DNA of 64,000 bases from Lacrimispora sphenoides JCM 1415 (lineage in GTDB: Bacteria; Bacillota; Clostridia; Lachnospirales; Lachnospiraceae). The translations under genes and the position numbers were made by a program. The stretch covers positions 4,290,501 through 4,354,500 of the forward strand of contig NZ_LT630003.1 in NCBI RefSeq assembly GCF_900105615.1, in the 5' to 3' direction. This document shows positions 19,954 to 47,200 of this stretch, piece by piece. Below the pieces are notes generated by a model. It was not told the origin of the DNA and did no database searches. It saw nothing but the letters and a program-made list of their open reading frames with translations. Every line of letters starts with the position of its first letter. Within the stretch, counting starts at the first letter, position 1.

Positions 19954-20643
19954 TTAACCTTCCTTAAGAAGCAGATGGAGATTACAGTGCCGGTGTAATG
20001 AATTGAGACCCTGCATAATAAAGTTCCATGTCTCACGAAAATCCCCCGGTACTGCAAAATCATCCGATGAGATAAATGCCTGAAAGCCTTTCTGATCAGA
20101 ACCATACTTATCTGCAAAAGCATCTGCATAATTTACCTTTTCATCGTCAGTCAGATTCCCATGATTGTTGTGAAGCACATGCTCAAGATTCCGGGAAAAA
20201 TAAAAAATAGAATACGGAATTTTACCCACTGCGTCGGCCGTACTAAGCCGGTACAGCACCTGGGATTTTCTTAAATTCCGGTCAATGACCCCCTCAGGAT
20301 CTGCCGATTCGATCCGGTCATCAAAATATCGGATTGTCCCCGTTGAGCTTTTTACAACCTTGTCCGCCGGAATAAACGCCCCGTCAATGTCAACAAGATG
20401 AATCACCTTAAGAATGTCTTTTTTATTAAAGCCATACCGTTTTCTTTCCACCTCTATGTGCTCATTGACCGTTTTAACGGCATTGTTGCCTGATACCGAC
20501 CAGTTGCTTGTCATATCGCCGTGAACCACATGGAAACGGACATCTTCCCTCTGAAATGCTTTTTTAAGAACCGGACTTAATGTCTCCTCGTCAGTGGGCC
20601 CTTCAACGATAAACAGGATTACTTTTTTAGTCTTGGCCGCCAT
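19954..20643 (-). CDS. TOPRIM-like protein partner of AAA ATPase (RloB/DUF4435-like); putative defence effector
   Basis: A 229-residue protein. The N-terminus carries VILFIVEGPTDEE, with Glu14 in the position of the TOPRIM catalytic glutamate, and HLVDIDGAF with Asp85-x-Asp87, the metal-binding pair of TOPRIM domains. This is the pattern of small nuclease-like proteins paired with OLD/RloA-type ATPases in phage defence (RloB, AbiLii, PARIS AriB). Its start overlaps the ATPase end by 17 bases, so the two are co-translated. I cannot place it firmly in one named family. C-terminal half unassigned. Confidence 0.65.
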   Translation of the reverse strand: MAAKTKKVILFIVEGPTDEETLSPVLKKAFQREDVRFHVVHGDMTSNWSVSGNNAVKTVNEHIEVERKRYGFNKKDILKVIHLVDIDGAFIPADKVVKSSTGTIRYFDDRIESADPEGVIDRNLRKSQVLYRLSTADAVGKIPYSIFYFSRNLEHVLHNNHGNLTDDEKVNYADAFADKYGSDQKGFQAFISSDDFAVPGDFRETWNFIMQGLNSLHRHCNLHLLLKEG

Positions 20644-22036
20644 CCCTTACCGTCTTTCCGGCACGCCTGAATGCACGGCCAATTTCCACACTGTCTGTCT
20701 CTTCATAAATAGCTTCTTTTTGACCGCCCAATATGATGCTCCGCAAATACATATCCCGCAAATTATGATTGCTCTTTATGTTCTGCAGACGGATATACCG
20801 GTTGGATGGATTTGTGGTGGAAAATACAATGCTGCTTTTATGAATCATTTCCAATGCCCGCAAGTTATGTGATGTGAAGATCAGCTGCCCCCTCGCACCC
20901 TTTTCAAAGACAGAAAGCAGTTCCCCTAAAAGATATTCATATACACCTGCATCCAGTTCATCAATAATCAAACACATGGAAGCATTGTTATAAACGCACA
21001 TGAGGGCATTAAGAACGGAAATGATCTTAATGATCCCTTCCGACTCATATTTCAAGGGAATTGTAATTTCTCCGCGTTTTGAAATTAATTCGACTCTGTG
21101 TCCTTCTTCCCCCCGTTCAAGAAGCTGCTCACCAAAGTCATAAATTCCAATGGAGAGGCCGGGAATCATGGCGTCAAGAACCACATTCATCTCATGAAGG
21201 ATCTTCCTGGCCATTTCAAAATGTTCTTTACTGATCACTGACGGTTCATCAAGCCTTATAAGCAAATCACCTTTTGCGATCCTTTCACCGAGATCCAGGC
21301 GGAACGCAAACGGGATCATGAAATCCATACTGATTGCTCCTGCACGGGCATTGGAAATTACGAACAGGTTCATGCCTGCATATTGATAAAGGGATTGGAT
21401 GATATAAGCATAATCCTCAGACGCGCCTTCAGAAGCGGATAAAAATACCCCCCTGCCTTCCGGTCCGAAGATAAAAGAAACCAGATCTTTCCGGGCAATT
21501 TTCTTTGCAACGCTTAAATTTACTTTATTTTCATCATTCTCCCGTATTAAATCTTCCAGCCGGTATTTTGGCGTAAATGTTGGCCCTTCTGAATGCAGTC
21601 CGTAATCGATCAAGGCTTTTTTGCTTTCAAACTTTTCTCCGGTCCAGGCTGCGGAACAGAGGGCTTCGTGTTCTATCTCGAACTCACTTTTGGAAATCCT
21701 TTTTAACTGGACAGAATATTCAGCCATGGTTTTTTTACTGTCTGTCTGGATTATAAACTTAACGGTAATTGTACAGGTTTCCATGTCTTTGGAAATATAA
21801 TGAACCACTTCCCTGGACAGGGGCCGCCCCGTTAGTAAAGTCTGAACGAACTCCATTGCTTCAATAACCGCGGTTTTCCCTGAACCGTTCTGGCCATAAA
21901 TGCCGAGAATGTCCGCTGTTTTTGAGAAATAATCCTTATTCCCTGCAGACGGCATTATAATTCTGCCATACTGGGTATTCTTAAATCCTTTTAATTCAAT
22001 CTCACTTACGCGAACCATCGTCTGAACCACGCCCAT
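20627..22036 (-). CDS. AAA15/21-type ATPase, RloA/AbiLi-like; putative defence ATPase
   Basis: A 469-residue ABC-like ATPase of the kind found in OLD, AbiL, PARIS and RloA systems. It opens with a typical RVSEIELKGFKN strand, Walker A GQNGSGKT (residues 48-55), a signature-like LKYESEGI (about 329-335), Walker B with Asp359-Glu360 in CLIIDELDAG, and a His switch TSHN (388-391). There is no fused nuclease domain; the TOPRIM part is supplied by the next gene. I chose the ATG at 22036 because AAGGAG lies just in front; an ATG ten codons upstream lacks this. The NusG-II gene lies 128 bases upstream on the same strand and is probably separate. Confidence 0.8.
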   Translation of the reverse strand: MGVVQTMVRVSEIELKGFKNTQYGRIIMPSAGNKDYFSKTADILGIYGQNGSGKTAVIEAMEFVQTLLTGRPLSREVVHYISKDMETCTITVKFIIQTDSKKTMAEYSVQLKRISKSEFEIEHEALCSAAWTGEKFESKKALIDYGLHSEGPTFTPKYRLEDLIRENDENKVNLSVAKKIARKDLVSFIFGPEGRGVFLSASEGASEDYAYIIQSLYQYAGMNLFVISNARAGAISMDFMIPFAFRLDLGERIAKGDLLIRLDEPSVISKEHFEMARKILHEMNVVLDAMIPGLSIGIYDFGEQLLERGEEGHRVELISKRGEITIPLKYESEGIIKIISVLNALMCVYNNASMCLIIDELDAGVYEYLLGELLSVFEKGARGQLIFTSHNLRALEMIHKSSIVFSTTNPSNRYIRLQNIKSNHNLRDMYLRSIILGGQKEAIYEETDSVEIGRAFRRAGKTVRDGGQD

Positions 22037-22164
22037 ATCAGCTCCTTCCCTGATCCCCAGGATCATTTAGCCCCTAAAACCTGTAATTATTTTTACATAA
22101 CGATACATTTTATTCCGATATTGGATATGATTCTCCAGAAACAGGAGATATATTCGGCGATTCC

Positions 22165-22530
22165 TTATTCTTCCCCTTCGATTGTGACTACCACCCGATT
22201 AGGCAGGCAGACAATCAGTTCCCCGCTTCTGTGGATCTTGCCCGTGCGGACACATACCTTATCAGGGCAGGAAGCATCCGTAATGCTGGCATAACCGTCT
22301 TTAATGATCAGATGATCCGTACCGCCATACCCATCAATAACCATGTCAGCATCTTTATGAAGATCCAGGGTTGCCACTATTTCGCCGTCTACAGTGACCA
22401 CCACCTGCTCCGCCGGCTTTCTGTTTTTGACATAAAATATCCCTGAGAGCAGTCCTGATATCACCAGAATGGCAGCAATCAGGATCAGCTCTCTCCTTTG
22501 TATTACTGTTAATTTTTTTACAAACTTCAT
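22165..22530 (-). CDS. NusG domain II membrane protein linked to flavin-based electron transfer
   Basis: A 121-residue protein with one N-terminal helix (about residues 15-34) and an extracytoplasmic NusG-domain-II fold. The hallmark is ITDASCPDKVCVRTGKI ... GELIVCLPNRVVVTI, with three cysteines. These small proteins occur repeatedly beside ApbE, FMN-binding and quinone genes in Firmicutes, but their biochemical role is not settled. Here it is divergent from the electron-transfer operon, sharing a 305-base promoter region, so a link by regulation is likely. RBS AGAGGT 5 bases before ATG. Confidence 0.8.
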   Translation of the reverse strand: MKFVKKLTVIQRRELILIAAILVISGLLSGIFYVKNRKPAEQVVVTVDGEIVATLDLHKDADMVIDGYGGTDHLIIKDGYASITDASCPDKVCVRTGKIHRSGELIVCLPNRVVVTIEGEE

Positions 22531-22835
22531 CTGTTACCTCTTATTTCTCTTAAATGTAATATCCTGAGATTTCATTATAACATAACAGTCTTGTTTATAA
22601 AATAAAAATTAGTCTAAAATCATTATAGAACACCTTGTATTGCCAGCCCGATTTGGATATCCGGAAACGAATGACCGGCTCCTTTTGACAGGCAATTCTC
22701 TATCTATGTAATAAGTTACAAAAAGTGGAAAAAGTGATCGATTTGCGATAAAATTATGGTAAAAATCATTCCCTTATGTTATAATAATGTCAAAGTGGCA
22801 TTTTGCGTGCCGCTATCATACAAGGAGGGGAAGAC
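22531..22835. promoter_or_regulatory. Divergent promoter region of NusG-II gene and electron-transfer operon
   Basis: Both sides carry the same extended -10 element TGTTATAAT. On the minus strand it is at 22582-22574 (for the NusG-II gene) and on the plus strand at 22777-22785 (for the ndh operon). No convincing -35 hexamer precedes either, which fits extended -10 promoters that may need an activator. The central 22600-22740 has no open frame or clear operator. Confidence 0.55.
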
Positions 22836-24863
22836 TTGAAAAGAATAGTAGTGTTAGGTGCCGGTTATGCCGGTATTTTAACTGCCAAAAAATTGGAAAA
22901 AAAATTCCGCAAGATGAAGATGGAGGACGAGGTAAGTATCTCCATCATAGACAGGCATCCGTTCCATACCATGCTAACAGAACTTCATGAAGTGGCCGCT
23001 GGAAGGGTAGAGGAAGACAGTATCCGCATCAGCCTGAAAAAAGTATTTGCCGGAAGGAATGTGGAAATCATTACTGACACCATCAGTCATATTTCCATTG
23101 AAGAGAAGAAATTGACGGGAAACAAGGGCGAATACGATTATGACTATCTAATCCTGGCCGCAGGCTCTAAGCCCACCTATTTCGGTGTGGAAGGTGCAGA
23201 GAAGAATTCTTATAAGCTTTGGTCTTATGAAGATGCTGTTTTATTAAAAGAACGGATTCACCATGTATTCCGCAAAGCGGCCTGTGAACCGGACGAGGCA
23301 GAAAAACGCCGCCTTTTGACGTTCTACGTCGTAGGCGCAGGTTTTACCGGTGTGGAAATGGCTGGAGAACTGGCAGAATATGTGCCCTTCTTATGTGATG
23401 AGTATGAAATAGAACCGTCTCTCGTCTCCATGTACAACGTAGATGTTTTAAAGCGGGCAGTGCCCATTCTTCCGGAAAAGCTGTCCGGCAAGGTAGAAAA
23501 GCGCCTGACAAAGATGGGCGTAAAGGTAATGATGGAAACCGGCGTGACCGCCATTGGCGAGGATTTCATCGAACTGAATCAGGATGGAAGGAAAAACCGT
23601 TATCCATCCGGTACAACCATCTGGACCGCCGGTATTGAAAGCGCAGATATTACAGGAGAAGCGGCCAAGACGCTTGAATCCGTAGGGCGCGGAAGAATCC
23701 AGGTAGATTCTTTCTTAAGAGCCAAAGACCACGAAGAAGTTTACGTAGTCGGTGACAACATGATGTATGTACCTCAGGGAGAAAATGCACCTGTTCCCCA
23801 GATGGTAGAAAACTGTGAGCAGAGCGCTCATACAGCCGCCCATAATCTGGTATGTGCCATTGCTGGTACCGGAGCGATGGAGGAGTATAAACCGTCCTTC
23901 CATGGCGTTATGGTTTCTGTAGGAGGCCGCTACGGAGTGGCACGGGTAGGACTTCCCAATCTCATGTTTAACCTGTGTTCCTTCTTTGCCATGCTTTCCA
24001 AGCATTTTATCAATGTTATTTATTTTATTCAGGTATTGGGTTGGAATAAAGTGTGGAGCTATGTGTGCCACGAATTCTTTACCGTACGCAACCGCAGAAG
24101 CTTCCTGGGAGGCCATTTCTCCAACAGGACTCCAAGCTTCCTGCTGATGCCGCTGCGTGTATGGCTGGGTGCCGTATGGGTATTTGAAGGCGTTATGAAG
24201 ATTGTTGAAGGCTGGATGGATCAGCCCATGCTGAGCGGATTCTTTGGAGGAGCCAATCAATTCTTCAATAACATTCTGGCTCCCTACGGGATCAGCGGAA
24301 TCGGAGGAGCAGTTCCTTCGGCTGATGCGGTCTCCAGTGCAACTTCTGCTGCTGCAGATGCGGTAGCCAGTGCCACTGGTGCTGCTGCTGGTGCTGCAGA
24401 TGCAGTTTCCAGTGGTGTAGCAGTTTTCTCCTATCATATTTTAGGATTAATCGACGCTACCCTTGTCAGTTCCAAAGGCATTTCCCATTCGACTCTGTCT
24501 GATTATGCCTTTAAACTGGATTTTGCTCCTATGAACTGGTTTGTGAATACTGTGATCCTGCCTAACGGCGGACTTCAGCTGTTTATGCAGCGCGGTATCG
24601 TAATCGCGGAGATCCTGATCGGTCTTGCTTTAATGGCAGGATTATTCAACTTCCTTTCCTCAGCAGCCTCCCTGGTGCTTCAGTTCATGTTTGTGTGCAC
24701 GACTGGTCTTTACTTAAACACGTTCTGGATGATTTTCGCCGGTATCGCAGTGTTAGTCGGCGGCGGCAGAACCCTTGGCCTTGATTATTATTTCATGCCC
24801 TGGCTTAAGAAAAAATGGAGAAAACTTCCCTTTATAAGGAAGTGGTATTTATACAATGACTAA
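22836..24863 (+). CDS. ndh2: Type II NADH dehydrogenase with C-terminal membrane domain (extracellular electron transfer Ndh2)
   Basis: Oxidises cytosolic NADH and passes electrons to membrane quinone. Residues 1-400 are a two-dinucleotide flavoprotein: VVLGAGYAG at the start, the NADH site VVGAGFTGVEMAGEL and the FAD signature YVVGDNMM. Unlike respiratory NDH-2 (about 400-450 residues) it continues to 675 residues with several helices that include a DoxX-like segment (RVWLGAVWVFEGVMKIVEG). This C-terminal membrane part is what distinguishes the Listeria Ndh2 used for extracellular electron transfer. A 40-residue Ala/Ser-rich stretch (about 490-530) interrupts it. The start is a TTG at 22836, preceded by AAGGAGGGG; no ATG fits. 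It overlaps the next gene by 8 bases. Confidence 0.88.
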   Translation: MKRIVVLGAGYAGILTAKKLEKKFRKMKMEDEVSISIIDRHPFHTMLTELHEVAAGRVEEDSIRISLKKVFAGRNVEIITDTISHISIEEKKLTGNKGEYDYDYLILAAGSKPTYFGVEGAEKNSYKLWSYEDAVLLKERIHHVFRKAACEPDEAEKRRLLTFYVVGAGFTGVEMAGELAEYVPFLCDEYEIEPSLVSMYNVDVLKRAVPILPEKLSGKVEKRLTKMGVKVMMETGVTAIGEDFIELNQDGRKNRYPSGTTIWTAGIESADITGEAAKTLESVGRGRIQVDSFLRAKDHEEVYVVGDNMMYVPQGENAPVPQMVENCEQSAHTAAHNLVCAIAGTGAMEEYKPSFHGVMVSVGGRYGVARVGLPNLMFNLCSFFAMLSKHFINVIYFIQVLGWNKVWSYVCHEFFTVRNRRSFLGGHFSNRTPSFLLMPLRVWLGAVWVFEGVMKIVEGWMDQPMLSGFFGGANQFFNNILAPYGISGIGGAVPSADAVSSATSAAADAVASATGAAAGAADAVSSGVAVFSYHILGLIDATLVSSKGISHSTLSDYAFKLDFAPMNWFVNTVILPNGGLQLFMQRGIVIAEILIGLALMAGLFNFLSSAASLVLQFMFVCTTGLYLNTFWMIFAGIAVLVGGGRTLGLDYYFMPWLKKKWRKLPFIRKWYLYND

Positions 24864-25842
24864 TAGAGAATTGTTGGAGGATGCAGACAGCCTGAGGTAT
24901 GGTTTTGAAGAGGCCTTCCAATTAATGGCATCGGCTGTGGAAAAGCATTTATCTTCAGCGCCTCCTGTCATCAGGACTTATACGGCCCATCTGGCAAAGT
25001 CCACAGGTAAATTCATCCGTGCTTATGGGCTGATGGCCTGTTCCATGGATGAAGAGGATAAAGTTCCTGCAGATGCCATTACCCTGGCTTCTGCAGTGGA
25101 ACTGCTGCATTTGGCCACCCTGGTCCATGATGATGTAATCGATGACGCTGATACAAGGCGGGGGATCGATACGCTTCAAAAGAGATTTGGCAAAAAAGCG
25201 GCGGTCATTTGCGGAGATTACCTCTTATCCCTGGCACTTAAACTGGCGGTTTCCATTCCTAAAAGAAAAGAATACGAAGCCCTGGATATGTCCAATTATC
25301 TATGCAGAATCTGCATGGGAGAATTACGCCAGGAAATCAACAATGGGAACCTGGATCTATCCGTTTACCGCTATCTAAGCATCATCAAAGGAAAAACAGC
25401 GGCGCTTTTTGAAGCATCCTTTCACGGCGGCGCCATGCTGTCCACAACGGATGAGAGAAAATTACGCATGTACCGTAAGGTCGGCAATGATGTTGGCATG
25501 ATTTTTCAGCTCATGGATGACTGTATTGATTATGAGATGGATGAAAATGATGCTAAGAAAAACGTCCGGTCCGATTATGAAGAAGGAGTTGTCACCTTGC
25601 CTCTCATTCATGCCATGAAACAGGATGAGAACTTTTTAATGCAGGTTAAAAACGGCCTGGTTTCCGCGAAGGAACTCTATGACAGAGTTTTGGAAGCCGG
25701 CGGAACCGCTTATACAAAAGCAATGGCTGGCAGATACTATACAAAAGCAGTAAGCACCATCGGAGCACTTAATTTATCCGAGGCCAAGATGGCCAGGATC
25801 ATGACCGTGGTGGATAAATCTTATTATGGTATTAAAAAATAA
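24856..25842 (+). CDS. dmkB: Polyprenyl diphosphate synthase (demethylmenaquinone side chain; DmkB-like)
   Basis: Makes the long isoprenoid tail of the quinone from IPP and an allylic primer. The first Asp-rich motif is HDDVIDDADTRRG (Asp92, Asp93, Asp96) and the second is FQLMDDCIDYE (Asp221, Asp222, Asp225), both intact. GKFIR and FEASFHGG are also typical of trans-prenyltransferases. At 328 residues it matches HepT/IspB-type enzymes. Its place between Ndh2 and the flavinylated lipoprotein corresponds to DmkB of the Listeria locus. Chain length cannot be predicted safely. Confidence 0.9.
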   Translation: MTNRELLEDADSLRYGFEEAFQLMASAVEKHLSSAPPVIRTYTAHLAKSTGKFIRAYGLMACSMDEEDKVPADAITLASAVELLHLATLVHDDVIDDADTRRGIDTLQKRFGKKAAVICGDYLLSLALKLAVSIPKRKEYEALDMSNYLCRICMGELRQEINNGNLDLSVYRYLSIIKGKTAALFEASFHGGAMLSTTDERKLRMYRKVGNDVGMIFQLMDDCIDYEMDENDAKKNVRSDYEEGVVTLPLIHAMKQDENFLMQVKNGLVSAKELYDRVLEAGGTAYTKAMAGRYYTKAVSTIGALNLSEAKMARIMTVVDKSYYGIKK

Positions 25843-25874
25843 AATATAAAGCAACATAAGGAGGAGTTTTAACT

Positions 25875-26990
25875 ATGAAAAAACGTGTTTTAGCTTTAGG
25901 CTGCGGTCTTATGGCGGCAGCAACTATCCTGGCAGGGTGTTCATCTAATTTAAAACAGGCACCAACTACTGCAGCACCGACAGAGGCAGCAACAACAGAA
26001 GCACCTACCACACAGGCTGAGGCCACCACAGAAGCTGCAAAGACTGAAGCAGCAGGCGGCGCTCTCTCTACCGGTTATGCAGCAATTTCTTCCATCGGCA
26101 AATCCACAGATGCTGGCGAAAAAGATGGTCTTGCAGAAGTAGATACCATGTTCGCAGCTGTATTAGTAGATGGCAGCGGTAAGATTGTAGACTGTAAAAT
26201 TGATTCCGTTCAGACCAAAGTGAATTTCTCCAAAGAAGGAAAACTGCTTACAGATCTTGGTACCGTTGTGGAATCCAAGAATGAGCTGGGAGAAAAATAT
26301 GGTATGAAAAAAGCTTCCGGTATCAGCAAAGAGTGGAACGAGCAGGCTGATGGCTTTGCTAAGTATGTAATCGGAAAAACTGCCGATGAAGTAAAAGGAA
26401 TTGCCGTTTCTGCAGATGGTGTTGCAGATGATGCAGACTTAAAGGCTACCATTACTGTTCATATCGGAGACTTTATCAATGTTGTTGAGCAGGCTGTTGC
26501 AAATGCTAAGAGCGCAGGAGCTCAGACAGGCGACAAGCTGGGTTATGGTATCGTAACAGGCATCAGCAAGTCCAAAGATGCAGCTGCAGATGCTGACGGC
26601 GTGGCTCAGGCATATTCTACCTACACAATTGCAAGCTTTGGCGCAGACAGCAAGATTACAAGCTGTGTGATTGACGCTTCTCAGGTCAATGTAAACTTCG
26701 ACGCTGCCGGTAAGATCACCAGCGACTTAAAAGCTGCTGATTTCAAGACCAAGAATCAGTTAGGTGAAGCCTATGGCATGAAGAAAGCTTCCGCAATCGG
26801 AAAAGAATGGAATGAGCAGGCTGCTAGTTTCGCAGCTTATGCAACTGGCAAAACAGCCAGTGAGATCACAGGTCTTGCAATTGATGAAAAAGAAGGTGCT
26901 CCTACTGATGCCGACTTAAAAGCCAGCGTAACTGTTGGTATTGGTGACTTCCAGGCAGGCATCTCCAAGGCAGAAGCTAATGCAAAATAA
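25875..26990 (+). CDS. pplA: Flavinylated surface lipoprotein with two FMN-bearing repeats (PplA-like)
   Basis: Extracytoplasmic electron carrier, 371 residues. Lipid anchor at Cys22 (ILAGC), then an Ala/Thr/Glu-rich linker (residues 30-60), then two copies of one domain (about 62-212 and 220-371) that share LGEKYGMKKAS / LGEAYGMKKAS and KEWNEQA. Each copy ends with DADLKA(T/S)xT (Asp186-Thr194 and Asp345-Thr353). This fits the ApbE target pattern Dxx(S/T)GA(S/T)xT except that Leu-Lys replaces (S/T)Gly; Thr194 and Thr353 would carry FMN. In Listeria PplA is the flavin shuttle to extracellular acceptors. RBS AAGGAGG. The next gene starts within its last codons. Confidence 0.9.
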   Translation: MKKRVLALGCGLMAAATILAGCSSNLKQAPTTAAPTEAATTEAPTTQAEATTEAAKTEAAGGALSTGYAAISSIGKSTDAGEKDGLAEVDTMFAAVLVDGSGKIVDCKIDSVQTKVNFSKEGKLLTDLGTVVESKNELGEKYGMKKASGISKEWNEQADGFAKYVIGKTADEVKGIAVSADGVADDADLKATITVHIGDFINVVEQAVANAKSAGAQTGDKLGYGIVTGISKSKDAAADADGVAQAYSTYTIASFGADSKITSCVIDASQVNVNFDAAGKITSDLKAADFKTKNQLGEAYGMKKASAIGKEWNEQAASFAAYATGKTASEITGLAIDEKEGAPTDADLKASVTVGIGDFQAGISKAEANAK

Positions 26991-28053
26991 AAAAGTTATA
27001 ACTTTTATAATGATTGCCGGAACTCTGGCAGCGCTTACTATGGCGGCGGTTAATACCGCCGCCATAGGAGCTAAAAAGGATCAAAGATTTCACGCCGAGT
27101 TCCTGAAACTCTTCGATACCGTCACCCAGATCGTCGGATATGCAAAGAATAAAGAGGAATTTACCCAGATTGCCACGGACGTTCATGATGAGCTGGAGAC
27201 GTACCATGAGCTATATGATATTTACAATGATTATGACGGTATAAACAATATTAAGACCATCAATGATAATGCCGGTAAAAGTCCCGTGAAAGTCGATCAG
27301 AAGATCATCGATATGTTAAAGGTTGCGGAAGAAGCCTATGAAAAAACAGACGGCAAAGTAAATGTAGCCATGGGAAGTGTTCTGTCCATCTGGCACGACT
27401 ATCGCACAAAGGGCATAGATAACCCGGAGACCGCCCAGGTTCCCCCTATGGACAAACTGAAAGAGGCAGCCCTACATACGGATTTCTCAAAGGTCATCAT
27501 AGATGAAGATGCCTCCACCGTATACCTGGAGGATCCTGAAATGCGCTTGGACGTGGGGGCCATTGCAAAAGGCTACGCCACGGAACTGGCAGCAAGATCT
27601 CTGGAAGCCAAGGGGATTGACCATGTTCTTCTCAGTGTTGGAGGCAATATCCGTGCCATCGGTATCCGGGGAGACGGAAAGCCCTGGAAGCTGGATATCC
27701 AAAATCCGGATCTTGACAGTGATAAAAAGTCCATTGATACTTTGGATTTAGACGGCTTTTCTCTCGTCAGCAGCGGTGATTACGAAAGGTATTACATTGT
27801 GGATGGGGTGAAATATCACCACATTATCGACCCTGAGACACTGATGCCTGCAGCATACTTCCGGGCAGTCTCCGTTGTTTGTAAGGACTCTGGCTGGGCA
27901 GATGCGCTGTCTACCGCTATATTTAACATGTCCTATGAAGAGGGACTGGCTATGATCGAAGATATGAAGGGTGTTGAAGCGATGTGGGTTCTGCCGGATA
28001 GCACCATTAAAACCAGCAGCGGCTACGAAGCGTTCCGCAGCCATGACCGTTAG
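26980..28053 (+). CDS. fmnB: FAD:protein FMN transferase (ApbE/FmnB)
   Basis: Covalently attaches FMN from FAD to threonines of exported target proteins; its obvious substrate is the PplA-like protein encoded directly upstream. The 357-residue protein has an N-terminal membrane segment (about 5-25) that places the enzyme outside the cytoplasm. ApbE landmarks are LDVGAIAKGYATE, SVGGNIRAIG, SSGDYERYY, HHIIDPET and the Mg-binding ADALSTA. I chose ATG 26980, 11 bases inside the pplA end; a longer upstream reading would duplicate pplA sequence in another frame and lose the signal segment. Confidence 0.92.
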   Translation: MQNKKVITFIMIAGTLAALTMAAVNTAAIGAKKDQRFHAEFLKLFDTVTQIVGYAKNKEEFTQIATDVHDELETYHELYDIYNDYDGINNIKTINDNAGKSPVKVDQKIIDMLKVAEEAYEKTDGKVNVAMGSVLSIWHDYRTKGIDNPETAQVPPMDKLKEAALHTDFSKVIIDEDASTVYLEDPEMRLDVGAIAKGYATELAARSLEAKGIDHVLLSVGGNIRAIGIRGDGKPWKLDIQNPDLDSDKKSIDTLDLDGFSLVSSGDYERYYIVDGVKYHHIIDPETLMPAAYFRAVSVVCKDSGWADALSTAIFNMSYEEGLAMIEDMKGVEAMWVLPDSTIKTSSGYEAFRSHDR

Positions 28054-28061
28054 GAGGCCAT

Positions 28062-29792
28062 ATGTCATACCGAGGACTACAGGATTTTATTCATAAATTG
28101 GAAGAGAGAGGGGAACTGATCCGGGTGACGGAGAAAGTATCCCCTCTCCTGGAAATAACAGAGATTACAGACAGGGTCTGCAAGTCAGAAAGTAATGATG
28201 GCAAAGCGCTTTTGTTTGAACATGTGGAGGGCTCTCCCTATCCGGTGCTGATGAACGCCTTTGGCACCGATAAGCGGATGGCCCTTTCTCTTGGAGCGGA
28301 TAACTTAGACGATATTGCAGCGGAAATAGGTGCCTATCTGGATTTTGGGAATTATACATCGCTTTTAAAGCTGATCTCCTTTTCGCCAAAGCTCCTGCGC
28401 CTGTTATGCTGCTTTCCTTTCAGGAGCCGTTTTCATGTCAAAAGGCCCAGCTGCCAGGAGGTTATAGAGAGGGAACCAGACTTAGAGCAGCTGCCGGTTC
28501 TGCATTGCTGGCCTCATGACGGAGGGCGTTTCTTTACACTTCCCCTTGTTTTTACAAAATATCCTGATACAAAGCTTCAAAACATAGGCATGTACCGGAT
28601 GCAGGTGCTGGATTCCAAGACAACGGCCATGCACTGGCAGAAACACAAGGATGGGGCCGGTATTTACGAAGCATACAGAAAGAAGGGCTGTCCTATGCCC
28701 GTATCCGTTGCACTTGGATGTGACCCGGCTGTGACATATGCTTCCACAGCTCCTCTTCCGCCGAAACTGGATGAGATGATGCTGGCCGGATTCTTAAGAA
28801 AAAGGCCGGTAAAAATGGTGAAATGCATTACCAACGATCTCTATGTGCCGGAGGATGCAGAATTTGTACTGGAGGGCTATGTAGATCCTCAGGAAGAACT
28901 GGTCTGGGAAGGACCTTTCGGTGATCATACCGGATATTATTCCCTGGCGGACTGGTATCCTAAATTTCATGTTACAACGATTACCCGTAAAAAACATCCT
29001 GTCTATCCTGCCACCGTAGTGGGCAAACCTCCTATGGAAGACTGCTATATGGCAAAGGCTACAGAACGCATCTTCCTTCCCGTATTAAAGACAGCGATTC
29101 CCGAGCTGCAGGATATCCATTTACCATTTGAAGGAGTCTTCCATAACTGCGCAGTGATATCGGTGAAATCATCCTATCCGGGAGCTGCCAGAACTGTCAT
29201 GAACGCCATATGGGGCATGGGACAGATGAGAACGGCAAAGATGATCGTGGCGGTCGATGAAACCATAGATCCCTGTGATGCGGCAGCTGTCTGGCAGGAA
29301 GTCTTGCGCTACGCCCATCCGGAGGAGGATTTTGTAGTCAGCAAAGGGCCGTTAGACGCTCTGGATCACTCTTCCGATTATCCATTGTATGGCGGACGGC
29401 TTGGTATAGATGCCACCAGCAGAGGGAAAGAAGCCTTTACAAAAGGAGCACTTGAAATCGTTCCTATCAGCAAGGAACAGCCCTGGGGAGGAAGGAAAAA
29501 AGCCCTTTCCATGCTGGAAGAAAAAAAGGCTTCTCTCATTTTAGTTGTGGACGAGGATGTAGACCCGTCAGATCATTCCACAGTCATGTGGCGGGTATTT
29601 AATAATATCGACGTTACCAGAGATATGTTTACGGATGGCAGGCGGGCGGCTTTCGATGCTACAAGAAAGCGTCTGGAGGAGGGACTTTCCCGTCCCTGGC
29701 CGGAAGATATCGTGATGACGGATGAAATCAAAAATAAGGTGTCAGCGAAATGGAGTGCTTATGGGATTGATCATAGGAAAAATAGTAAATAA
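28062..29792 (+). CDS. ubiD: UbiD-family decarboxylase (prenylated-FMN dependent; MqnL/UbiD-like)
   Basis: A 576-residue member of the UbiD family, which removes an aromatic or alpha,beta-unsaturated carboxylate using prenylated FMN. Conserved parts include NIGMYRMQVLDSKTTAMHWQ, the EFVLEGYVDPQE loop and WEGPFGDHTGYY, which hold the catalytic Glu and metal-binding residues. In quinone pathways this step decarboxylates the prenylated ring: UbiD in ubiquinone, MqnL in the futalosine route. It starts 8 bases after fmnB and overlaps the UbiA gene by 32 bases; UbiX, which makes its cofactor, is two genes on. The operon context argues for a quinone role over phenolic-acid breakdown. Confidence 0.88.
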   Translation: MSYRGLQDFIHKLEERGELIRVTEKVSPLLEITEITDRVCKSESNDGKALLFEHVEGSPYPVLMNAFGTDKRMALSLGADNLDDIAAEIGAYLDFGNYTSLLKLISFSPKLLRLLCCFPFRSRFHVKRPSCQEVIEREPDLEQLPVLHCWPHDGGRFFTLPLVFTKYPDTKLQNIGMYRMQVLDSKTTAMHWQKHKDGAGIYEAYRKKGCPMPVSVALGCDPAVTYASTAPLPPKLDEMMLAGFLRKRPVKMVKCITNDLYVPEDAEFVLEGYVDPQEELVWEGPFGDHTGYYSLADWYPKFHVTTITRKKHPVYPATVVGKPPMEDCYMAKATERIFLPVLKTAIPELQDIHLPFEGVFHNCAVISVKSSYPGAARTVMNAIWGMGQMRTAKMIVAVDETIDPCDAAAVWQEVLRYAHPEEDFVVSKGPLDALDHSSDYPLYGGRLGIDATSRGKEAFTKGALEIVPISKEQPWGGRKKALSMLEEKKASLILVVDEDVDPSDHSTVMWRVFNNIDVTRDMFTDGRRAAFDATRKRLEEGLSRPWPEDIVMTDEIKNKVSAKWSAYGIDHRKNSK

Positions 29793-30639
29793 ATTAAATG
29801 AATACGGGAAGCTGGTCATGTTCAGCCATACCATCTTTTCCCTGGCCTTTGCTGCAGTGGCCCTGCTTGCTGTTTCCGGCGGCCTGCCGGATCCAAAAGT
29901 CGTATTCTGGGCTGCCCTAGCCTTTTTAAGCGCCAGAACAGGTGCTAATGCCTTAAACCGGGTAGTGGATGCCAGGATCGACGCCAAAAACCCCAGAACA
30001 GCAAGCCGCCAGATTCCAAAGGGACAGATCGGAAAAAAAGAAACCCTGGTCCTGGTGGCAGCCTGCTTTCTGGTTATGGTATTCAGCGCCTCCCGTTTAA
30101 ACCTGCTATGTCTCCTCCTTTCCCCTCTGGCTTTGTTCCTGATGACAATCTACTCCTACACGAAACGATTTACCTGGACATGCCATCTGGTTCTGGGTAT
30201 CACATGCGCCTGCGCTCCCGTAGGAGCCTGGCTGGCGGTAACGGGGAAGTTTTCCCTGATACCGCTTTTCTTTGGTGCTGCCAACTGCCTATGGACTGCG
30301 GGATTCGATATTATCTACGGCTCTCAGGATTATGAATTTGATAAGGCAAACGGACTCCATTCCATTCCTGTGCAGTTTGGCGTGAGAGGCGGGTTATGGA
30401 TCAGTACCCTGTTCCATGTGGCTGCACTGCTTTGCCTGTGTATTGCCGGAGTACTGCTCTATCCCCAGTTTGGTGTGCTCTATGGAACCGGCCTGGGGAT
30501 TATCGCGGTTCTTATGGTGATTCAGCACCGGCTGGTATCACCGGATCATCTGGAAAATGTCAATATTTCGTCCTACAGCATCAGCCAGATCACCAGTATC
30601 GTGCTTCTGGTCTTCGGAACTCTGGATGTATACTTATAA
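29761..30639 (+). CDS. UbiA-family prenyltransferase (DmkA/MqnP-like)
   Basis: Membrane enzyme that joins a polyprenyl chain to an aromatic acid. At 292 residues it has about eight to nine helices and both Asp motifs: NRVVDARID (Asn66, Asp70, Asp74) and DIIYGSQDYEFD (Asp183, Asp190, Asp194). Pairing with UbiD and UbiX makes it more like MqnP or UbiA, which prenylate a ring that keeps its carboxylate, than MenA, where decarboxylation is part of the same reaction. Listeria DmkA stands at the equivalent point of its locus. I chose ATG 29761 with GGAG 5 bases in front; it lies within the ubiD end. Confidence 0.87.
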   Translation: MGLIIGKIVNKLNEYGKLVMFSHTIFSLAFAAVALLAVSGGLPDPKVVFWAALAFLSARTGANALNRVVDARIDAKNPRTASRQIPKGQIGKKETLVLVAACFLVMVFSASRLNLLCLLLSPLALFLMTIYSYTKRFTWTCHLVLGITCACAPVGAWLAVTGKFSLIPLFFGAANCLWTAGFDIIYGSQDYEFDKANGLHSIPVQFGVRGGLWISTLFHVAALLCLCIAGVLLYPQFGVLYGTGLGIIAVLMVIQHRLVSPDHLENVNISSYSISQITSIVLLVFGTLDVYL

Positions 30640-30666
30640 CGCAATGGAAAGGGAAAGAGACAGACT

Positions 30667-31251
30667 ATGAAACAATATGTAGTTGGAATTACAGGCGCCA
30701 GCGGCAGCATTTACGGCCTTCGGACAGTAGAAGCCCTGCTGGAAGGCGGAGCCAGAGTACGGCTCATCCTGACGGGAACAGGGGAAAAGGTCTTAGCCTA
30801 TGAAACCGGACGGGAAGCTGGTGAATGGATCGATGATTTTAAGAAACGTTTTAGAAATCAGCTTATCCTGGAAGATAACAACGATCTGTTTTCCGCTGCA
30901 GCCAGCGGTTCCCATCTGACAGATGGAATGATTATCGCACCATGCTCCATGTCAAAGCTGGCCCACATTGCGGCAGGAATTACACCGGATTTAATGACCC
31001 GGGCTGCCGATGTGGCGTTAAAACAGCGGCGTCCTCTGGTGTTAATGCCCAGGGAAACGCCCCTGTCCCAGATTCATTTGAAAAATATGCTGACTCTGGC
31101 AGAGTGCGGTGCATTTATCGTTCCTGCTATGCCGGCCTTTTACCAGAAGCCAAAATGTCTTGACGACATGGCGGATTTTATGGCCGGCCGGGTACTTGAT
31201 TGCCTGGGGGTTGAAAATCGCCGGTACCCCAGATGGAGAGAAGAAGAATAA
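30667..31251 (+). CDS. ubiX: Flavin prenyltransferase UbiX
   Basis: Makes the prenylated FMN cofactor of UbiD from FMN and dimethylallyl phosphate. The 194-residue protein shows the flavin-binding start GITGASGSIYG, the ASGSHLTDGMIIAPCSMSKLA block and PRETPLSQIHL, all standard for UbiX/Pad1. Presence of the complete UbiD, UbiA and UbiX set in one operon strongly supports a route with separate prenylation and decarboxylation steps. Confidence 0.92.
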   Translation: MKQYVVGITGASGSIYGLRTVEALLEGGARVRLILTGTGEKVLAYETGREAGEWIDDFKKRFRNQLILEDNNDLFSAAASGSHLTDGMIIAPCSMSKLAHIAAGITPDLMTRAADVALKQRRPLVLMPRETPLSQIHLKNMLTLAECGAFIVPAMPAFYQKPKCLDDMADFMAGRVLDCLGVENRRYPRWREEE

Positions 31252-31286
31252 GAAATAAAGCGAACGAATAAACCTAAGGAGAATTT

Positions 31287-32261
31287 ATGAAAAAATCAGA
31301 AAAAAGTGCTAAGAAACATTATTTATTAGGCCGCACGGGAATTCTTGCGGCATTGTTTGGCTGTACAGCGGCGGTTATCCTGGGCGGATGCGCCGCCAAA
31401 GAGAAGACACCCGTGGATAACACTGTTCATTTAGGTGTCATGTATTCTTCCGATATTGTCCCCCTTACCATCATAACGGAACAGGAGCTTGACAAAAAGT
31501 ACGGAGTCCAATTGGATATGCAGGTATTCTCTTCTGCAAAGGACCGGGATGCTGCTCTTCAGGCAGGGGAATTAGATGGGGTGTTTACGGACTTCATCGG
31601 CCTGTGTATGTATCAGAATGCGGGACTTGACGTAAAAGCAACCGGATGCACTGACGGAGATTATGTGCTGCTGGCAGGAAAGGATACTGGAATCACTTCC
31701 CTGGAGAACGCGGCGGGAAAAAGCATTGCAATCTCGGAAAACACGCTGATCGAATATTCCCTGGATTATATTTTAACGAATGCCGGGTTAGTTGATACAT
31801 ATTTGGACAAGCAGGTGGTACCGCGGATCCCAGACAGGCTTGAAATGCTGCGAAACGGCAAGATCGATCTTGTTCTTCTGCCGGAACCATTCTCCACTCT
31901 GGCGATCAAGGATGGCGCGGTAGTTCTTGGGAGTGCCAATACTGACGGACTGTATCCGGCCGTATCTGCATTTACAAAGAAAGCCATTGATGAAAAATCC
32001 GATACCATAAAAAAGATGTATCAGGCATACGATGAAGCAGTTGATTATCTGAATACCACTCCGTTAAAAGAGTATGAAGCCACGATCATCAAGGCGGCAG
32101 GCTATCCGGAAGAACTCACCGGAAATATTAAGCTGCCGGACTATCGGAAAAATGAACTGCCAAAAGCGGCTGACTTACAGGCAGCTGTGGAATGGGCAGC
32201 TAAGAAGGGATTATGCAGCCCGGATTTAAAGCCTGATGAACTGGTGGGTGAATTGAAATAG
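31287..32261 (+). CDS. ABC transporter substrate-binding lipoprotein (NMT1/SsuA-like), candidate quinone-precursor importer
   Basis: A 324-residue lipoprotein, anchor Cys35 (LGGC). The fold is that of NMT1/THI5/SsuA binding proteins (VHLGVMYSSDIVPL opening, ALQAGELDGVFTDF, then the hinge NAAGKSIAISEN). Known members bind hydroxymethylpyrimidine, alkanesulfonates, taurine or aromatic acids; MqnA and MqnD of the futalosine pathway have related folds but are enzymes without signal peptides. Its place directly behind a prenylation and decarboxylation module suggests a naphthoate-like ring precursor as cargo (inference). Thiamine-precursor uptake is the main alternative, but no thiamine gene is near. 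RBS AAGGAG. Confidence 0.75.
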   Translation: MKKSEKSAKKHYLLGRTGILAALFGCTAAVILGGCAAKEKTPVDNTVHLGVMYSSDIVPLTIITEQELDKKYGVQLDMQVFSSAKDRDAALQAGELDGVFTDFIGLCMYQNAGLDVKATGCTDGDYVLLAGKDTGITSLENAAGKSIAISENTLIEYSLDYILTNAGLVDTYLDKQVVPRIPDRLEMLRNGKIDLVLLPEPFSTLAIKDGAVVLGSANTDGLYPAVSAFTKKAIDEKSDTIKKMYQAYDEAVDYLNTTPLKEYEATIIKAAGYPEELTGNIKLPDYRKNELPKAADLQAAVEWAAKKGLCSPDLKPDELVGELK

Positions 32262-32288
32262 AGACTTAAGAAGAACGGAGGGAGCCAG

Positions 32289-33026
32289 ATGCTGAAAGTA
32301 AAAGATATCTCTGTCACATATGGGAAAGGCGGGATGAATAAAATCATTGACCAGATGTCCTGGCAGCTGGAGACCGGAACGGTCCTGGCTGTTGCAGGTC
32401 CCTCCGGCTGCGGAAAATCCACCATGGTTCACGCACTGGCAGGTATACTGCCTTATACGGGCTCCATCACCCTGGATGGTAACGGGCTTGACCCCAAAAC
32501 GTGTTCTATCGGGCTGATCCCTCAAAACTATGGGCTGCTGCCCTGGAAGACAGTAAAGGAAAACTGCCTGTTTACAGCCAAAATCCGTGGAAATACCCAT
32601 GACCTGGAGATGCAGCTTTCCAGCCTGTGCAAAGACCTGGGGATTGACGGGCTATTGGAACGTTATCCAGGTACATTAAGCGGCGGCCAGGCGCAGCGTG
32701 TGGCTCTTGCAAGAGCCTTTCTTATGAATCCGGAGCTTCTCCTGATGGACGAGCCTTTCGCTGCACTGGATATTGTGGCGGCTCTTGCTGCAAGGGAACT
32801 GTTTCTGAGGGTCTGGAAGGAAAAAAAGCCCACTGCAGTCATAGTCACCCATCGGGTGGAAGACGCCCTTTACCTTGCCCATAATATCGCAGTTATGAAA
32901 CGGGGCGGCGGCTTAAATTTTTTCTGTGAAAATCCATGGCAAGGTGTAAAACGTCCCTCAGAAGCAGCATATGCTGAGCTTGAACAGCAGATCACGGAGA
33001 AAATCATAAAGGCGGATGAGATATGA
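32289..33026 (+). CDS. ABC transporter ATPase (SsuB/TauB-like)
   Basis: A 245-residue importer ATPase with Walker A GPSGCGKST, signature LSGGQAQRVALARA, Walker B LLLMDEP and the switch THRVEDALYLA. The type fits nitrate/sulfonate/taurine-class importers and therefore the upstream binding protein. The stop overlaps the permease start in ATGA. Part of the same transcript as the quinone genes: gap of only 27 bases to the binding-protein gene. Confidence 0.88.
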   Translation: MLKVKDISVTYGKGGMNKIIDQMSWQLETGTVLAVAGPSGCGKSTMVHALAGILPYTGSITLDGNGLDPKTCSIGLIPQNYGLLPWKTVKENCLFTAKIRGNTHDLEMQLSSLCKDLGIDGLLERYPGTLSGGQAQRVALARAFLMNPELLLMDEPFAALDIVAALAARELFLRVWKEKKPTAVIVTHRVEDALYLAHNIAVMKRGGGLNFFCENPWQGVKRPSEAAYAELEQQITEKIIKADEI

Positions 33027-33760
33027 GAAAAAAAATGTGGGTCTTTATAAAAGGCTTTTTACTTGTAAATTTACTCTGGTTCCTTCTCGCTGCCCTTCTG
33101 TCCACCTCTGTGCTTCCAGGGCCGCTAACGGTCTACTACAAGTTCAGCCAGGTAATAAACGGAGGGCTTTGGCTTCATATAGGAGCCAGCTTAGGCCGTG
33201 TAACGGCAGGCCTAATCCTTGCCCTCCTCATCGGCGTACCTGTTGGAATCCTTATGGCCTCCTCTGCCATCGCCAGCCGCGTTCTTCACCCTCTGGTGTA
33301 CTTTTCCTACCCGGTTCCCAAAACAGCGCTGCTTCCGGTCTGTATGCTGCTTTTAGGGCTTGGCAATGGCTCTAAAATTCTCATCATCGTCCTGACCACG
33401 GTATTCCAGATCATTGTGGCTGTCCGGGATGCGGCGGAGCATATTGATCAGGGAATTTATTATGTGGCAAAAAGCGCGGGCGCCCGCAAACGAAGTATCT
33501 TAAAGGATATTACCCTGCCTGCGGTGCTGCCGGAGCTGTTCACCAGCATTCGGATTGGAACAGGAACATCCTTAGCCATCCTTTTAATTGTAGAAGCTTA
33601 TGGAACCCGCTGGGGGATGGGCTACTACATTCTGGACGCATGGTCCAGGATTAACTACATTCAGATGTACGGCGGCATTGTCATCATGTCGGTGGTAGGA
33701 GCAGCATTATTCTGGATTTTGGATGGAATTCAGTGGGCGTTGTGCAAGGGAACGAAGTAA
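33023..33760 (+). CDS. ABC transporter permease (SsuC/TauC-like)
   Basis: A 245-residue six-helix permease of the same importer. The ATPase-contact loop is YVAKSAGARKRSILKDITLPAVLP (about residues 152-175). Final gene of the electron-transfer and quinone operon; a strong terminator follows 31 bases later. Confidence 0.88.
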   Translation: MRKKMWVFIKGFLLVNLLWFLLAALLSTSVLPGPLTVYYKFSQVINGGLWLHIGASLGRVTAGLILALLIGVPVGILMASSAIASRVLHPLVYFSYPVPKTALLPVCMLLLGLGNGSKILIIVLTTVFQIIVAVRDAAEHIDQGIYYVAKSAGARKRSILKDITLPAVLPELFTSIRIGTGTSLAILLIVEAYGTRWGMGYYILDAWSRINYIQMYGGIVIMSVVGAALFWILDGIQWALCKGTK

Positions 33761-33791: not shown

Positions 33792-33825
33792 GCCGCAGGA
33801 TATTCGGTATCCTGCGGCTTTTTTC
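33792..33825 (+). terminator. Strong terminator closing the electron-transfer/quinone operon
   Basis: Perfect 11-bp stem GCCGCAGGATA / TATCCTGCGGC around a TTCGG loop, then TTTTTT. It is the first strong plus-strand terminator I see after 22.8 kb, supporting one ten-gene transcription unit. Confidence 0.92.
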
Positions 33826-44232: not shown

Positions 44233-47200
44233 TTACCGGTTCTCCCTCTTGTTCCTGCTGCTTAATGCCGCATAAGCAGCCAGCAGGAATCCTGACAATA
44301 ATGCCACAAGTCCCTGTACATGCATTTTGTCTCCTGTCTTCGGCAGACCTGCTAATGGAATATTGCCGTCATCAATTATCAGAAGGCTGGTTTCTATGTC
44401 ATTCTCAACCGGTAAATTTGATAATGGTACCGCATCAGGAGTGATTGTCACAAAGTTATCACCCGGGCCGCCCGGTACAAAGGGACGTTTCGTGTTCGGA
44501 GAGGAGCCTCCGCTGTTACCGCCTCCTCCGCTGTTACCGCCTCCACTGCTTACATAGGTCACTGTCAGTCTGCCTGCAACGTAGGTGATCTCATAATTCG
44601 CGGTTACATCAAGGTCTCCGGATGTGATCACCGCATCGCTGGCAATATTGTCACTGCTGCCAACCGACTTCTGAGCTCCTGTCAAGAGAACGCTTTTTAA
44701 ACTATGGCCTTCTGCCAGCTGTCCATGGGTGATCTTAGCAGCATTGGCACTTAGATCAGTTCCATCATACCTCTTTTCCGCACTATCCGCAGTAATGGTA
44801 ACAGGTCTTCTGTTAATTGTTACGGTACCTTTCACTACATCTGTTTCTGCATAGTTTGGATTTTGGGCTTTTACATATACAAAGTAAGTTCCTGCATCTG
44901 TAAAGGCCGGCTTTTTCTCGCTGAATGTTACCTGATCCAAAGAGTATAATAAGGTGGACCCGGCTTTTATCGCTGCTGCATCTTTTAAGCCGTATGCGTG
45001 GCCGTCATAGGTCACTGCCTGCCCGGCAACACTTACTCCGTTGTTATTCCCAGCATAGATCTTCAATTCCCCGTTAATAACAGTAACCTTGTAGTTTTCA
45101 TTTGCGTTATAAGCTGCTGTTAATGTTATCTGATCAGAGGCATCTTCTTTCTTTTGGTCTGCCTCAAGCCTGTGATAACGAATGGTCCCTAAGTCCCCTT
45201 CCGCAACCAGACCATCAGCCTGACCGGTAAACTCCGGATCTGCCGTACCATATTCCTTGCTCTTATTGTCTACCCGGATGGTTATATCCTTTGCTGCCAC
45301 CCTGATGATTACGGCTTTCGCTTCCAGATCCACGTATCCAGACCTCGTTGCCTTTATCTGGACAGTTACAAATCCTTCTGATACATTGGTTACGCTTGGC
45401 GGGGTTTCCGTCCACTCGCCGTCTCCTGTCTTGTAGAATGTCGTGTAACCAGGTGCATTCTCCAGCGTCGAACCTGCCTCATGAGGAGCTCCGTCATATT
45501 CCCAGGTACCGCCTGTTCCTGTTAAGGAAGCATTTAAAAGCGATGCTGTCCTGATCTCAAAGTCTCCATTTTTCGCAGTAACAATATAGTTGCTATTCTC
45601 TGTATACGCCGGTACAATGACATCCGGATAGCTTCCTACCGCCTCAGCTTCATTGCTTCTTATGTAAGCGATATTCCCCAGATCCATCTGGCTGATCAGA
45701 CCCTCCACCGTTCCAGAGAATTCAGGATCTGCATCATCATAGTACTTAAATGCATGATATGCTGTGATAAATGCCTCTTTTGCATTTATTTTCAGCGTCA
45801 CATCATCTGCAGTCAAATCCTCGTAACCGACTCTCGCTGCTTTTACAGATACTGTTACCATTCCGTCTGATACATTGGTCACACTTGGCGGTGCGGTACT
45901 CCATTCACTGTCACCGGTCTTGTAATACATGGTATAGCCATCGGCATGATTCAATAAGCCCTTTGCTTCGTGGGCAGCTCCATCATAAGTCCATTCGCCG
46001 CCTTCCGCTGTAAGGACTGCTCCTTCCATGGTTGCCGTCCTAATCTCAAAATTGCCCTTCACAACGGATACGGTATAGTTCTTATTTTCTGTAAATACTG
46101 CTTCCAGAACTCCCGTGTATACAGCCACATCGTTCTCTTTGTTTGTTCTGATATAGCTGATTGATCCCAGATCTCCTTCATTTACAAGGGGATCTACGGT
46201 TCCTGTAAAGATTGGATCCGGCTGATCATAAAACCTGGAGCTGCTATTCACATGAATGGCAATTGCCTTGGGAATGATCTGAAGTGTTACATCATCTGCG
46301 ATCAGATCCTCATAACCGTTTCTCATTGCTTTTACAGATACCGTCATTAGCCCTTCCGATACATTGGTCACACTTGGTGGTGTGATGCTCCAGTCGCCCT
46401 CACCAGCTTTGTAATAAATGGTATAGCCATCTGCATGATCCAATAAACCTTTTGCCTTATGAGCCGTTCCGTCATAAATCCACTTGCCGCCTTCCGCTGT
46501 CAGTTTAGCACCTTCCATGGTTGCCTTCCTGATCTCAAAATTCCCCTTGGAAACAGTAACTGAATAATTGGGATTCGCCTCGTACCTGGCATCTAAAACT
46601 TCCTCATAATTCCCTACATCTTCCGCCTGATTTGTTCTCACATAGCTGATCGTCCCCAAATCTCCTGCATTTACAAGCTCCGGTCCCGGTCCGCTAAAAG
46701 CCGGGTCATCGCTGCCATAATATTTCCAGGCATCTGCTATGGTAATGGTCACAGCCTTGGGAATAATCTTTATTTCTACCGGATCTGCGGTAAGAGTCTC
46801 ATATCCGTTCTTTACAGCCTTCACAGATACGGTTACAGTACCTTCCTTAACGTTGGTTATGCCTGGAGGTGTTGTCGTCCACCCTTTATTTCCTGCCTGG
46901 TAGTAAATTAAGTAGCCGTCCGCATTCTCTATGCCGGCAGTTATTGCATGTAAATTTCCGTCATAGGTCCATTCACCGCCTGCAATAGTTACTTTCGCTC
47001 CTTCCACGGAAGCTGTTTTAATTTCAAAGGTTCCCGGAATTACGGTTACTTCATAGTTGGAGTTCTCTGTGTATTTTGCATTCAGAACTCCCGGATATAC
47101 ATCGACTCCTTCTGCATCATTGATTCTCACATAGCTGATTGTTCCCAGGTCACCGTCTGTCACAAGGCCACTTAAATTTCCTGTGAACGCCGGATCCGGC

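Follow-up and report, generated by a model that had tools for sequence, protein, structure and literature searches.

A conserved ten-gene row with electron-export genes, late futalosine-type genes and an ABC importer, as a putative quinone-salvage operon

A row of ten genes codes for proteins of extracellular electron transfer (EET), for a set of late enzymes of the futalosine (Mqn) pathway, and for an ABC importer. As judged from sequence, the row is probably a combined operon for quinone salvage and electron export, in which the importer would bring in a naphthoate for conversion into the demethylmenaquinone used by Ndh2 and PplA. The reading starts from the genes themselves, their order and its conservation, the absence of early pathway genes by the models used, and the linkage of the importer to MqnL across genomes; from these we infer what is transported and in which direction, which quinone is formed, and that electrons are exported at all.

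Results

Organization and conservation of the gene row

The window (the whole stretch of 64,000 nucleotides analysed) belongs to a genome of 5.30 Mb in one contig, 99.93% complete, and the closest named relatives of the proteins of the row are from Clostridia. The ten plus-strand genes at 22836-33760 are arranged in the order ndh2, polyprenyl synthase (dmkB), PplA-like lipoprotein (pplA), apbE, ubiD, ubiA, ubiX, substrate-binding protein (SBP), ATPase and permease (Table 1), and neighbouring genes everywhere either overlap or stand no more than 35 bp apart. The ndh2 and dmkB genes overlap by 8 bp, pplA overlaps apbE, ubiD overlaps ubiA, and the ATPase and permease genes overlap by 4 bp; the gaps are of 32 bp (dmkB to pplA), 8 bp (apbE to ubiD), 27 bp (ubiA to ubiX), 35 bp (ubiX to SBP) and 27 bp (SBP to ATPase). 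The first-pass annotation had described such a row, closed by a terminator near 33.8 kb and flanked by a divergent gene for a NusG-domain-II protein; the ten genes and the divergent one are indeed all present, and a hairpin with a T-run was confirmed at the end of the row. The genes beyond the terminator are on the opposite strand. The NusG-domain-II gene is also divergent from ndh2 at the loci of the same genus, and its product presumably resembles EetA.

Table 1. Positions in the window of the genes of the row, the divergent gene and the terminator
Feature	Position	Strand	Evidence
Small NusG domain II (PF07009) protein, divergent from ndh2	22165-22530	-	Pfam 110 bits
Ndh2-type NADH:quinone oxidoreductase with C-terminal membrane part	22836-24863	+	Pyr_redox_2 118.6 bits; membrane extension read from sequence
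Polyprenyl diphosphate synthase, DmkB-like, quinone tail	24856-25842	+	PF00348 184 bits
PplA-like lipoprotein, two repeats	25875-26990	+	Repeats and motifs from sequence
ApbE/FmnB-type flavin transferase	26980-28053	+	PF02424 238.7 bits; ORF call opens at TTG 26935, ATG at 26980
UbiD family, MqnL-type decarboxylase	28062-29792	+	TIGR03701 609.6 bits (cut-off 495.9)
UbiA family, MqnP-like prenyltransferase	29722-30639	+	MqnP_DT model 272 bits (cut-off 430) vs ubiA_proteo 125
UbiX family flavin prenyltransferase (MqnM)	30667-31251	+	TIGR00421 210.8 bits (cut-off 108.9); family-level match
NMT1/SsuA-type substrate-binding lipoprotein	31287-32261	+	Family models, alignment, predicted structure
ABC ATPase	32289-33026	+	PF00005 103.7 bits
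ABC permease	33023-33760	+	PF00528 67.8 bits
Intrinsic terminator	33792-33818	+	12-pair stem with 7 G-C pairs, then T-run; 31 bp past last stop

The arrangement was found again in related genomes. All five same-genus loci that were read whole (G002, G006, G009, G012 and G014) have the identical order of 11 genes, which indicates that the order is not due to chance. In a further genome (G008) the row is divided among contigs and the permease was not seen there. Acetivibrio ethanolgignens (L046) also keeps the ten genes together, as does an Oscillospiraceae MAG (L120), where ubiX comes last.

Beside the row, on the minus strand at 19954-22066, the gene for an AAA_21 ATPase (104.5 bits on the AbiLi model and 45.6 on the AriA model) overlaps that for a 229-residue protein with no Pfam or PADLOC match, and the two possibly form a two-gene defence system. 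Two minus-strand genes of the window (44233-54054 and 57405-63986) code for giant proteins of surface type, 3273 and 2193 residues long; 12 MBG stretches and a VWA domain are found in the first, 9 SpaA stretches in the second.

Electron-export genes

The open reading frame of ndh2 was called from 22803; a TTG at 22836 stands behind AAGGAGGGG and is probably the start. The DmkB-like synthase scored 164.6 bits on TIGR02748, under the cut-off of 456.6, and no chain-length model passes. For the PplA-like lipoprotein no Pfam or NCBIfam match was obtained. Its repeats carry D-x4-A-[ST] motifs, DADLKAT (186-192) and DADLKAS (345-351), which are possible candidates for FMN sites, and the PplA-like protein of A. 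ethanolgignens keeps one such motif. A second ApbE is encoded in the same genome (L176:8034-9035), far from the row, and adjoins the frame of what we take to be a CbiK-like chelatase.

Among the genes between 22165 and 33760, neither EetB nor FmnA (parts of the flavin exporter) was found, and the row includes no DmkA (MenA-type) prenyltransferase, its sole UbiA-family member being MqnP-like. The gene assignments altogether uphold the initial view of the row as EET genes joined to a quinone module and an importer. UbiD, UbiX and the importer had been considered foreign to the Listeria locus, and none of them is among the eight EET proteins of Listeria (PMC8906456). Listeria PplA is described as modified at two threonines (PMC8906456).

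Quinone module

Because of the model scores, taken with controls from E. coli and Sporomusa, the UbiD, UbiA and UbiX proteins can be assigned by sequence to the late futalosine-pathway set of MqnL, an MqnP-like prenyltransferase and MqnM, which were proposed for the late steps by Ravcheev and Thiele 2016 (PMC4746308). The UbiD protein of the row gave 337.9 bits on the E. coli-type UbiD model, and E. coli UbiD gave 1153.7 on its own-type model and 481.3 on TIGR03701, just short of the cut-off of 495.9. The prenyltransferase next to mqnL in Sporomusa with the full pathway (L115) also misses the MqnP cut-offs (295/420 and 282/430), and E. coli UbiA scored 94 on the MqnP model and 372 on the proteobacterial UbiA model. 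In the prenyltransferase tree, the MqnP placement of the row protein is not settled. In a Syntrophomonadaceae MAG (L073:5020-6537), UbiX family and ABC_sub_bind (PF04392) domains are found in a single frame, which shows no evident signal peptide.

Absence of early ring-synthesis genes

The genome was searched for early ring-synthesis genes with models of MqnA/D, MqnC and MenD. No match to MqnA/MqnD (PF02621) was obtained, and the best scores were 53 bits for MqnC (cut-off 428) and 62.5 bits for MenD (cut-off 244); that for MenG/UbiE was 57 bits (cut-off 158). With the models used, neither of the known ring routes is seen complete in this genome. MenD and MenG/UbiE were each over the cut-off in 0/26 genomes with MqnL (this genome, six genus-mates, G045, G049 and 17 of the class). 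Given the negative searches for MqnA/D, MqnC and MenD, the ring is probably supplied from outside, and demethylmenaquinone as the product fits with the lack of any MenG/UbiE over the cut-off. The 'self-contained' chain 'with a dedicated quinone' proposed at first is not supported, because the late Mqn enzymes are there but MqnA/D, MqnC and MenD were not found.

Importer and its binding protein

The importer is complete in the row, with the genes for binding lipoprotein, ATPase and permease side by side. In an alignment of 33 sequences of the binding protein, the lipobox Cys35 is nearly invariant, and R87, S150, R184 and W303 are invariant. The predicted model (pLDDT 90) has a fold related to SsuA/TauA/Thi5-type binding proteins; the nearest solved folds are those of SsuA and of PqqT with a bound quinone (PQQ), both at 16-17% identity, and the list of near folds also includes thiamine- and pyrimidine-type binders. 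The fold does not pick the ligand, because SsuA fits as well as PqqT.

Linkage of the importer to MqnL across genomes

Among 393 genomes of the class, each at least 90% complete, MqnL was over the cut-off in 18, the present one included. True MqnA/D was found in none of the 18, with the best match at 47 bits compared with 155-257 bits for real MqnA/D matches. In the 17 other class genomes, the flanks of mqnL were read for up to about 10 kb in either direction. Sixteen of them show one or more importer genes there, with only the binding protein in L160, L164, L165 and L167, and only ATPase and permease in L161. The 17th (G158) has a cut ubiX followed by SBP, ATPase and permease genes at the end of another contig.

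Importer genes are also located beside mqnL at 30 of 80 named loci, from Lachnospiraceae, Clostridiaceae, Fusibacter, Thermoanaerobacterales, Spirochaetota and others. The early pathway was tested in 50 of these 80 genomes, namely the 30 with an adjacent importer and 20 from the remaining 50. Real MqnA/D was detected in 1/30 importer-adjacent genomes versus 11/20 others, an MqnC-type match of at least 280 bits in 1/30 versus 12/20, and either of these genes in 1/30 versus 13/20. Viewed from the pathway, an adjacent importer was found in 29/36 genomes with orphan MqnL versus 1/14 pathway-bearing genomes (Fisher 2.5e-6, a value that ignores kinship; many contigs in the set are short, and many of the pathway-bearing genomes belong to other phyla). 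G180, G225 and G227 of the class sample apparently duplicate the named L060, L056 and L064, so that the class and named samples overlap, apparently by at least three genomes.

With the alignment of 33 binding proteins, 23 genomes were then searched. Nine of the 11 orphan-MqnL genomes that lacked a binding protein by mqnL in the first scan have one elsewhere (249-409 bits), accompanied by ATPase and permease in six of the nine; in G105 it is located about 9 kb from mqnL on the same contig. No such binding protein was detected by this search in G104 and G108, genomes that may be incomplete. The four genus-mates without MqnL gave at most 76.4 bits. Seven of the pathway-bearing genomes were searched in this way. 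Sporomusa acidovorans (G110), which has the early pathway, has a binding protein of 433 bits with ATPase and permease, and in G101 the frame of the binding protein is broken, with ATPase and permease genes behind it; the other five gave at most 75.5 bits or no binding protein.

In a spirochaete MAG (L082, 5972-7612), the permease and the MqnP-like prenyltransferase form one frame of 546 residues, with BPD_transp_1 at 75-240 and UbiA at 280-529, a fusion that ties transport to prenylation and is known from this one MAG. The same genome (G087) also gave MqnA, MqnD and MqnC-type matches. Early pathway and importer coexist in G087 and G110, and perhaps in G101, which counts against the salvage reading, as does the lack of a binding protein in G104 and G108. 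As a separate observation, a genome of 1.5 Mb (G045) carries a tandem pair of binding proteins of the importer family (L209:5376-7273); the fetched stretch of 13 kb shows no matching ATPase or permease.

Link to electron export

In the genus, ndh2 was detected in 7 of 25 genomes, the same seven that have MqnL (agreement 25/25; two genomes are less than 85% complete), one of the MqnL genes being divided among contigs (G008, 268.6 bits). This joint presence indicates that the ndh2 and quinone modules come and go together. Within the fetched stretches, ndh2 was present at 5/30 named importer loci (many on short contigs) and 5/17 class loci; no ndh2 was seen in 12/17 class stretches, and neither ndh2 nor apbE in 11/17. 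In a genome of another family (G049), a divergent SBP gene is followed by ndh2, synthase, mqnL, prenyltransferase, ubiX, ATPase, permease and FMN-binding protein genes. In G103, the importer comes after apbE, ndh2 is divergent from the importer, and mqnL is on a separate contig. Since the importer is also found without visible EET genes, its general role would seem to be salvage, with EET as one of the uses of the quinone.

Discussion

The importer in the row is explained if, as appears, the ring is supplied from outside. Other microbes would make a soluble naphthohydroquinone with a carboxylate, which binding protein, ATPase and permease would bring into the cell. The imported ring would most likely be 1,4-dihydroxy-6-naphthoate, which we prefer because it is the product of the early futalosine pathway and the proposed substrate of the late enzymes (PMC4746308). 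The DmkB-like synthase may build the tail, the MqnP-like prenyltransferase may join it to the ring, and MqnL, using the prenylated flavin cofactor made by UbiX, would strip the carboxylate to yield demethylmenaquinone. Ndh2 would then reduce demethylmenaquinone with NADH, and electrons would exit via the PplA-like lipoprotein, which ApbE would flavinylate.

The importer might instead supply the flavoproteins of the chain with riboflavin or some other flavin, the quinone-gene neighbourhood being secondary. EET depends on flavins, and the fold of the binding protein is shared by binders of vitamins or their precursors, such as the thiamine- and pyrimidine-type binders and RibY. Listeria, furthermore, is described as importing and exporting flavin by ECF transporters (PMC9973259). 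We nevertheless regard flavin import as improbable, because the importer keeps to mqnL in the class stretches without ndh2, lumazine synthase RibH is encoded in 24/26 genomes with MqnL, the present one included (205 bits), and one permease is fused to the prenyltransferase (L082). As to the identity of the ring, 1,4-dihydroxy-2-naphthoate (DHNA) loses its carboxylate during prenylation by MenA, and for this reason the UbiD/UbiX pair would be needless for DHNA; together with the MqnP-like score of the prenyltransferase, this leaves a small probability that the substrate is DHNA or another aromatic acid, or that several naphthoates are carried. In favour of DHNA, it is a documented supplied precursor in EET bacteria (PMC10746273, PMC8837199).

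It is likewise improbable that the ring is made in the cell by an undescribed route, with the importer carrying an early precursor or something unrelated, since mqnL, mqnP, mqnM and the importer are clustered too tightly for extra enzyme genes to fit in between, and MqnC and MqnD, required for the known early intermediates, were not found. Lacking the known genes is, however, not the same as lacking a route, and non-orthologous replacements are known in the pathway (PMC4746308). Very improbable is the view that the UbiD, UbiA, UbiX and importer genes handle another substrate, such as an acid of aromatic degradation, and are mere neighbours of the EET genes, given that ndh2 and MqnL are jointly present or absent in every genus genome (two of them less than 85% complete) and that the score on the MqnL model is clearly above those on other UbiD models. 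This view draws on the breadth of UbiD enzymes, which act on many aromatic acids.

Several known systems come close to the row. In the flavin-based EET (FLEET) locus known from Listeria monocytogenes and from lactic acid bacteria, Ndh2, a DmkB-like synthase, a PplA-like lipoprotein and ApbE/FmnB likewise stand in one row; here, in contrast, MqnP-like, MqnL and UbiX proteins together with an ABC importer take the place of DmkA, the row lacks EetB and FmnA, and the models used detected no early ring synthesis in the genome. With the futalosine pathway the row shares the late enzyme families of MqnL, MqnM and, in an MqnP-like protein, MqnP, and in the survey of 254 gut genomes late Mqn genes are reported in every genome with the Mqn pathway and absent from the rest (PMC4746308), whereas here they stand without MqnA/C/D beside an importer. 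The locus does not fully belong to the futalosine pathway, and as the row lacks DmkA, EetB and FmnA it is not a canonical FLEET locus either. By analogy, it resembles Listeria-type EET fed by quinone salvage as in Lactiplantibacillus plantarum (PMC10746273, PMC8837199), likewise a quinone-ring auxotroph performing EET, both traits being predicted for the present organism. L. plantarum performs EET with supplied DHNA, by uptake pathways described as yet to be identified (PMC10746273); unlike this use of DHNA, the present row offers an ABC importer candidate and Mqn-type enzymes.

The use of supplied or cross-fed DHNA is already known, and genes for quinone-precursor transport were said to 'remain to be annotated' (PMC4746308); the present locus offers a concrete importer candidate with a testable ligand. 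The chances are about even that an as yet unnamed ABC importer for the menaquinone ring is widespread, many Clostridia and some Spirochaetota with orphan MqnL being ring auxotrophs that would fetch 1,4-dihydroxy-6-naphthoate from neighbours, and that several of these have wired salvage to flavin-based export. If this is true, mqnL without mqnA/C/D, plus an importer of the row type, would be a genomic marker of dependence, anaerobes taken for fermenters could respire on rings made by their neighbours, and electron export would be tied to community membership.
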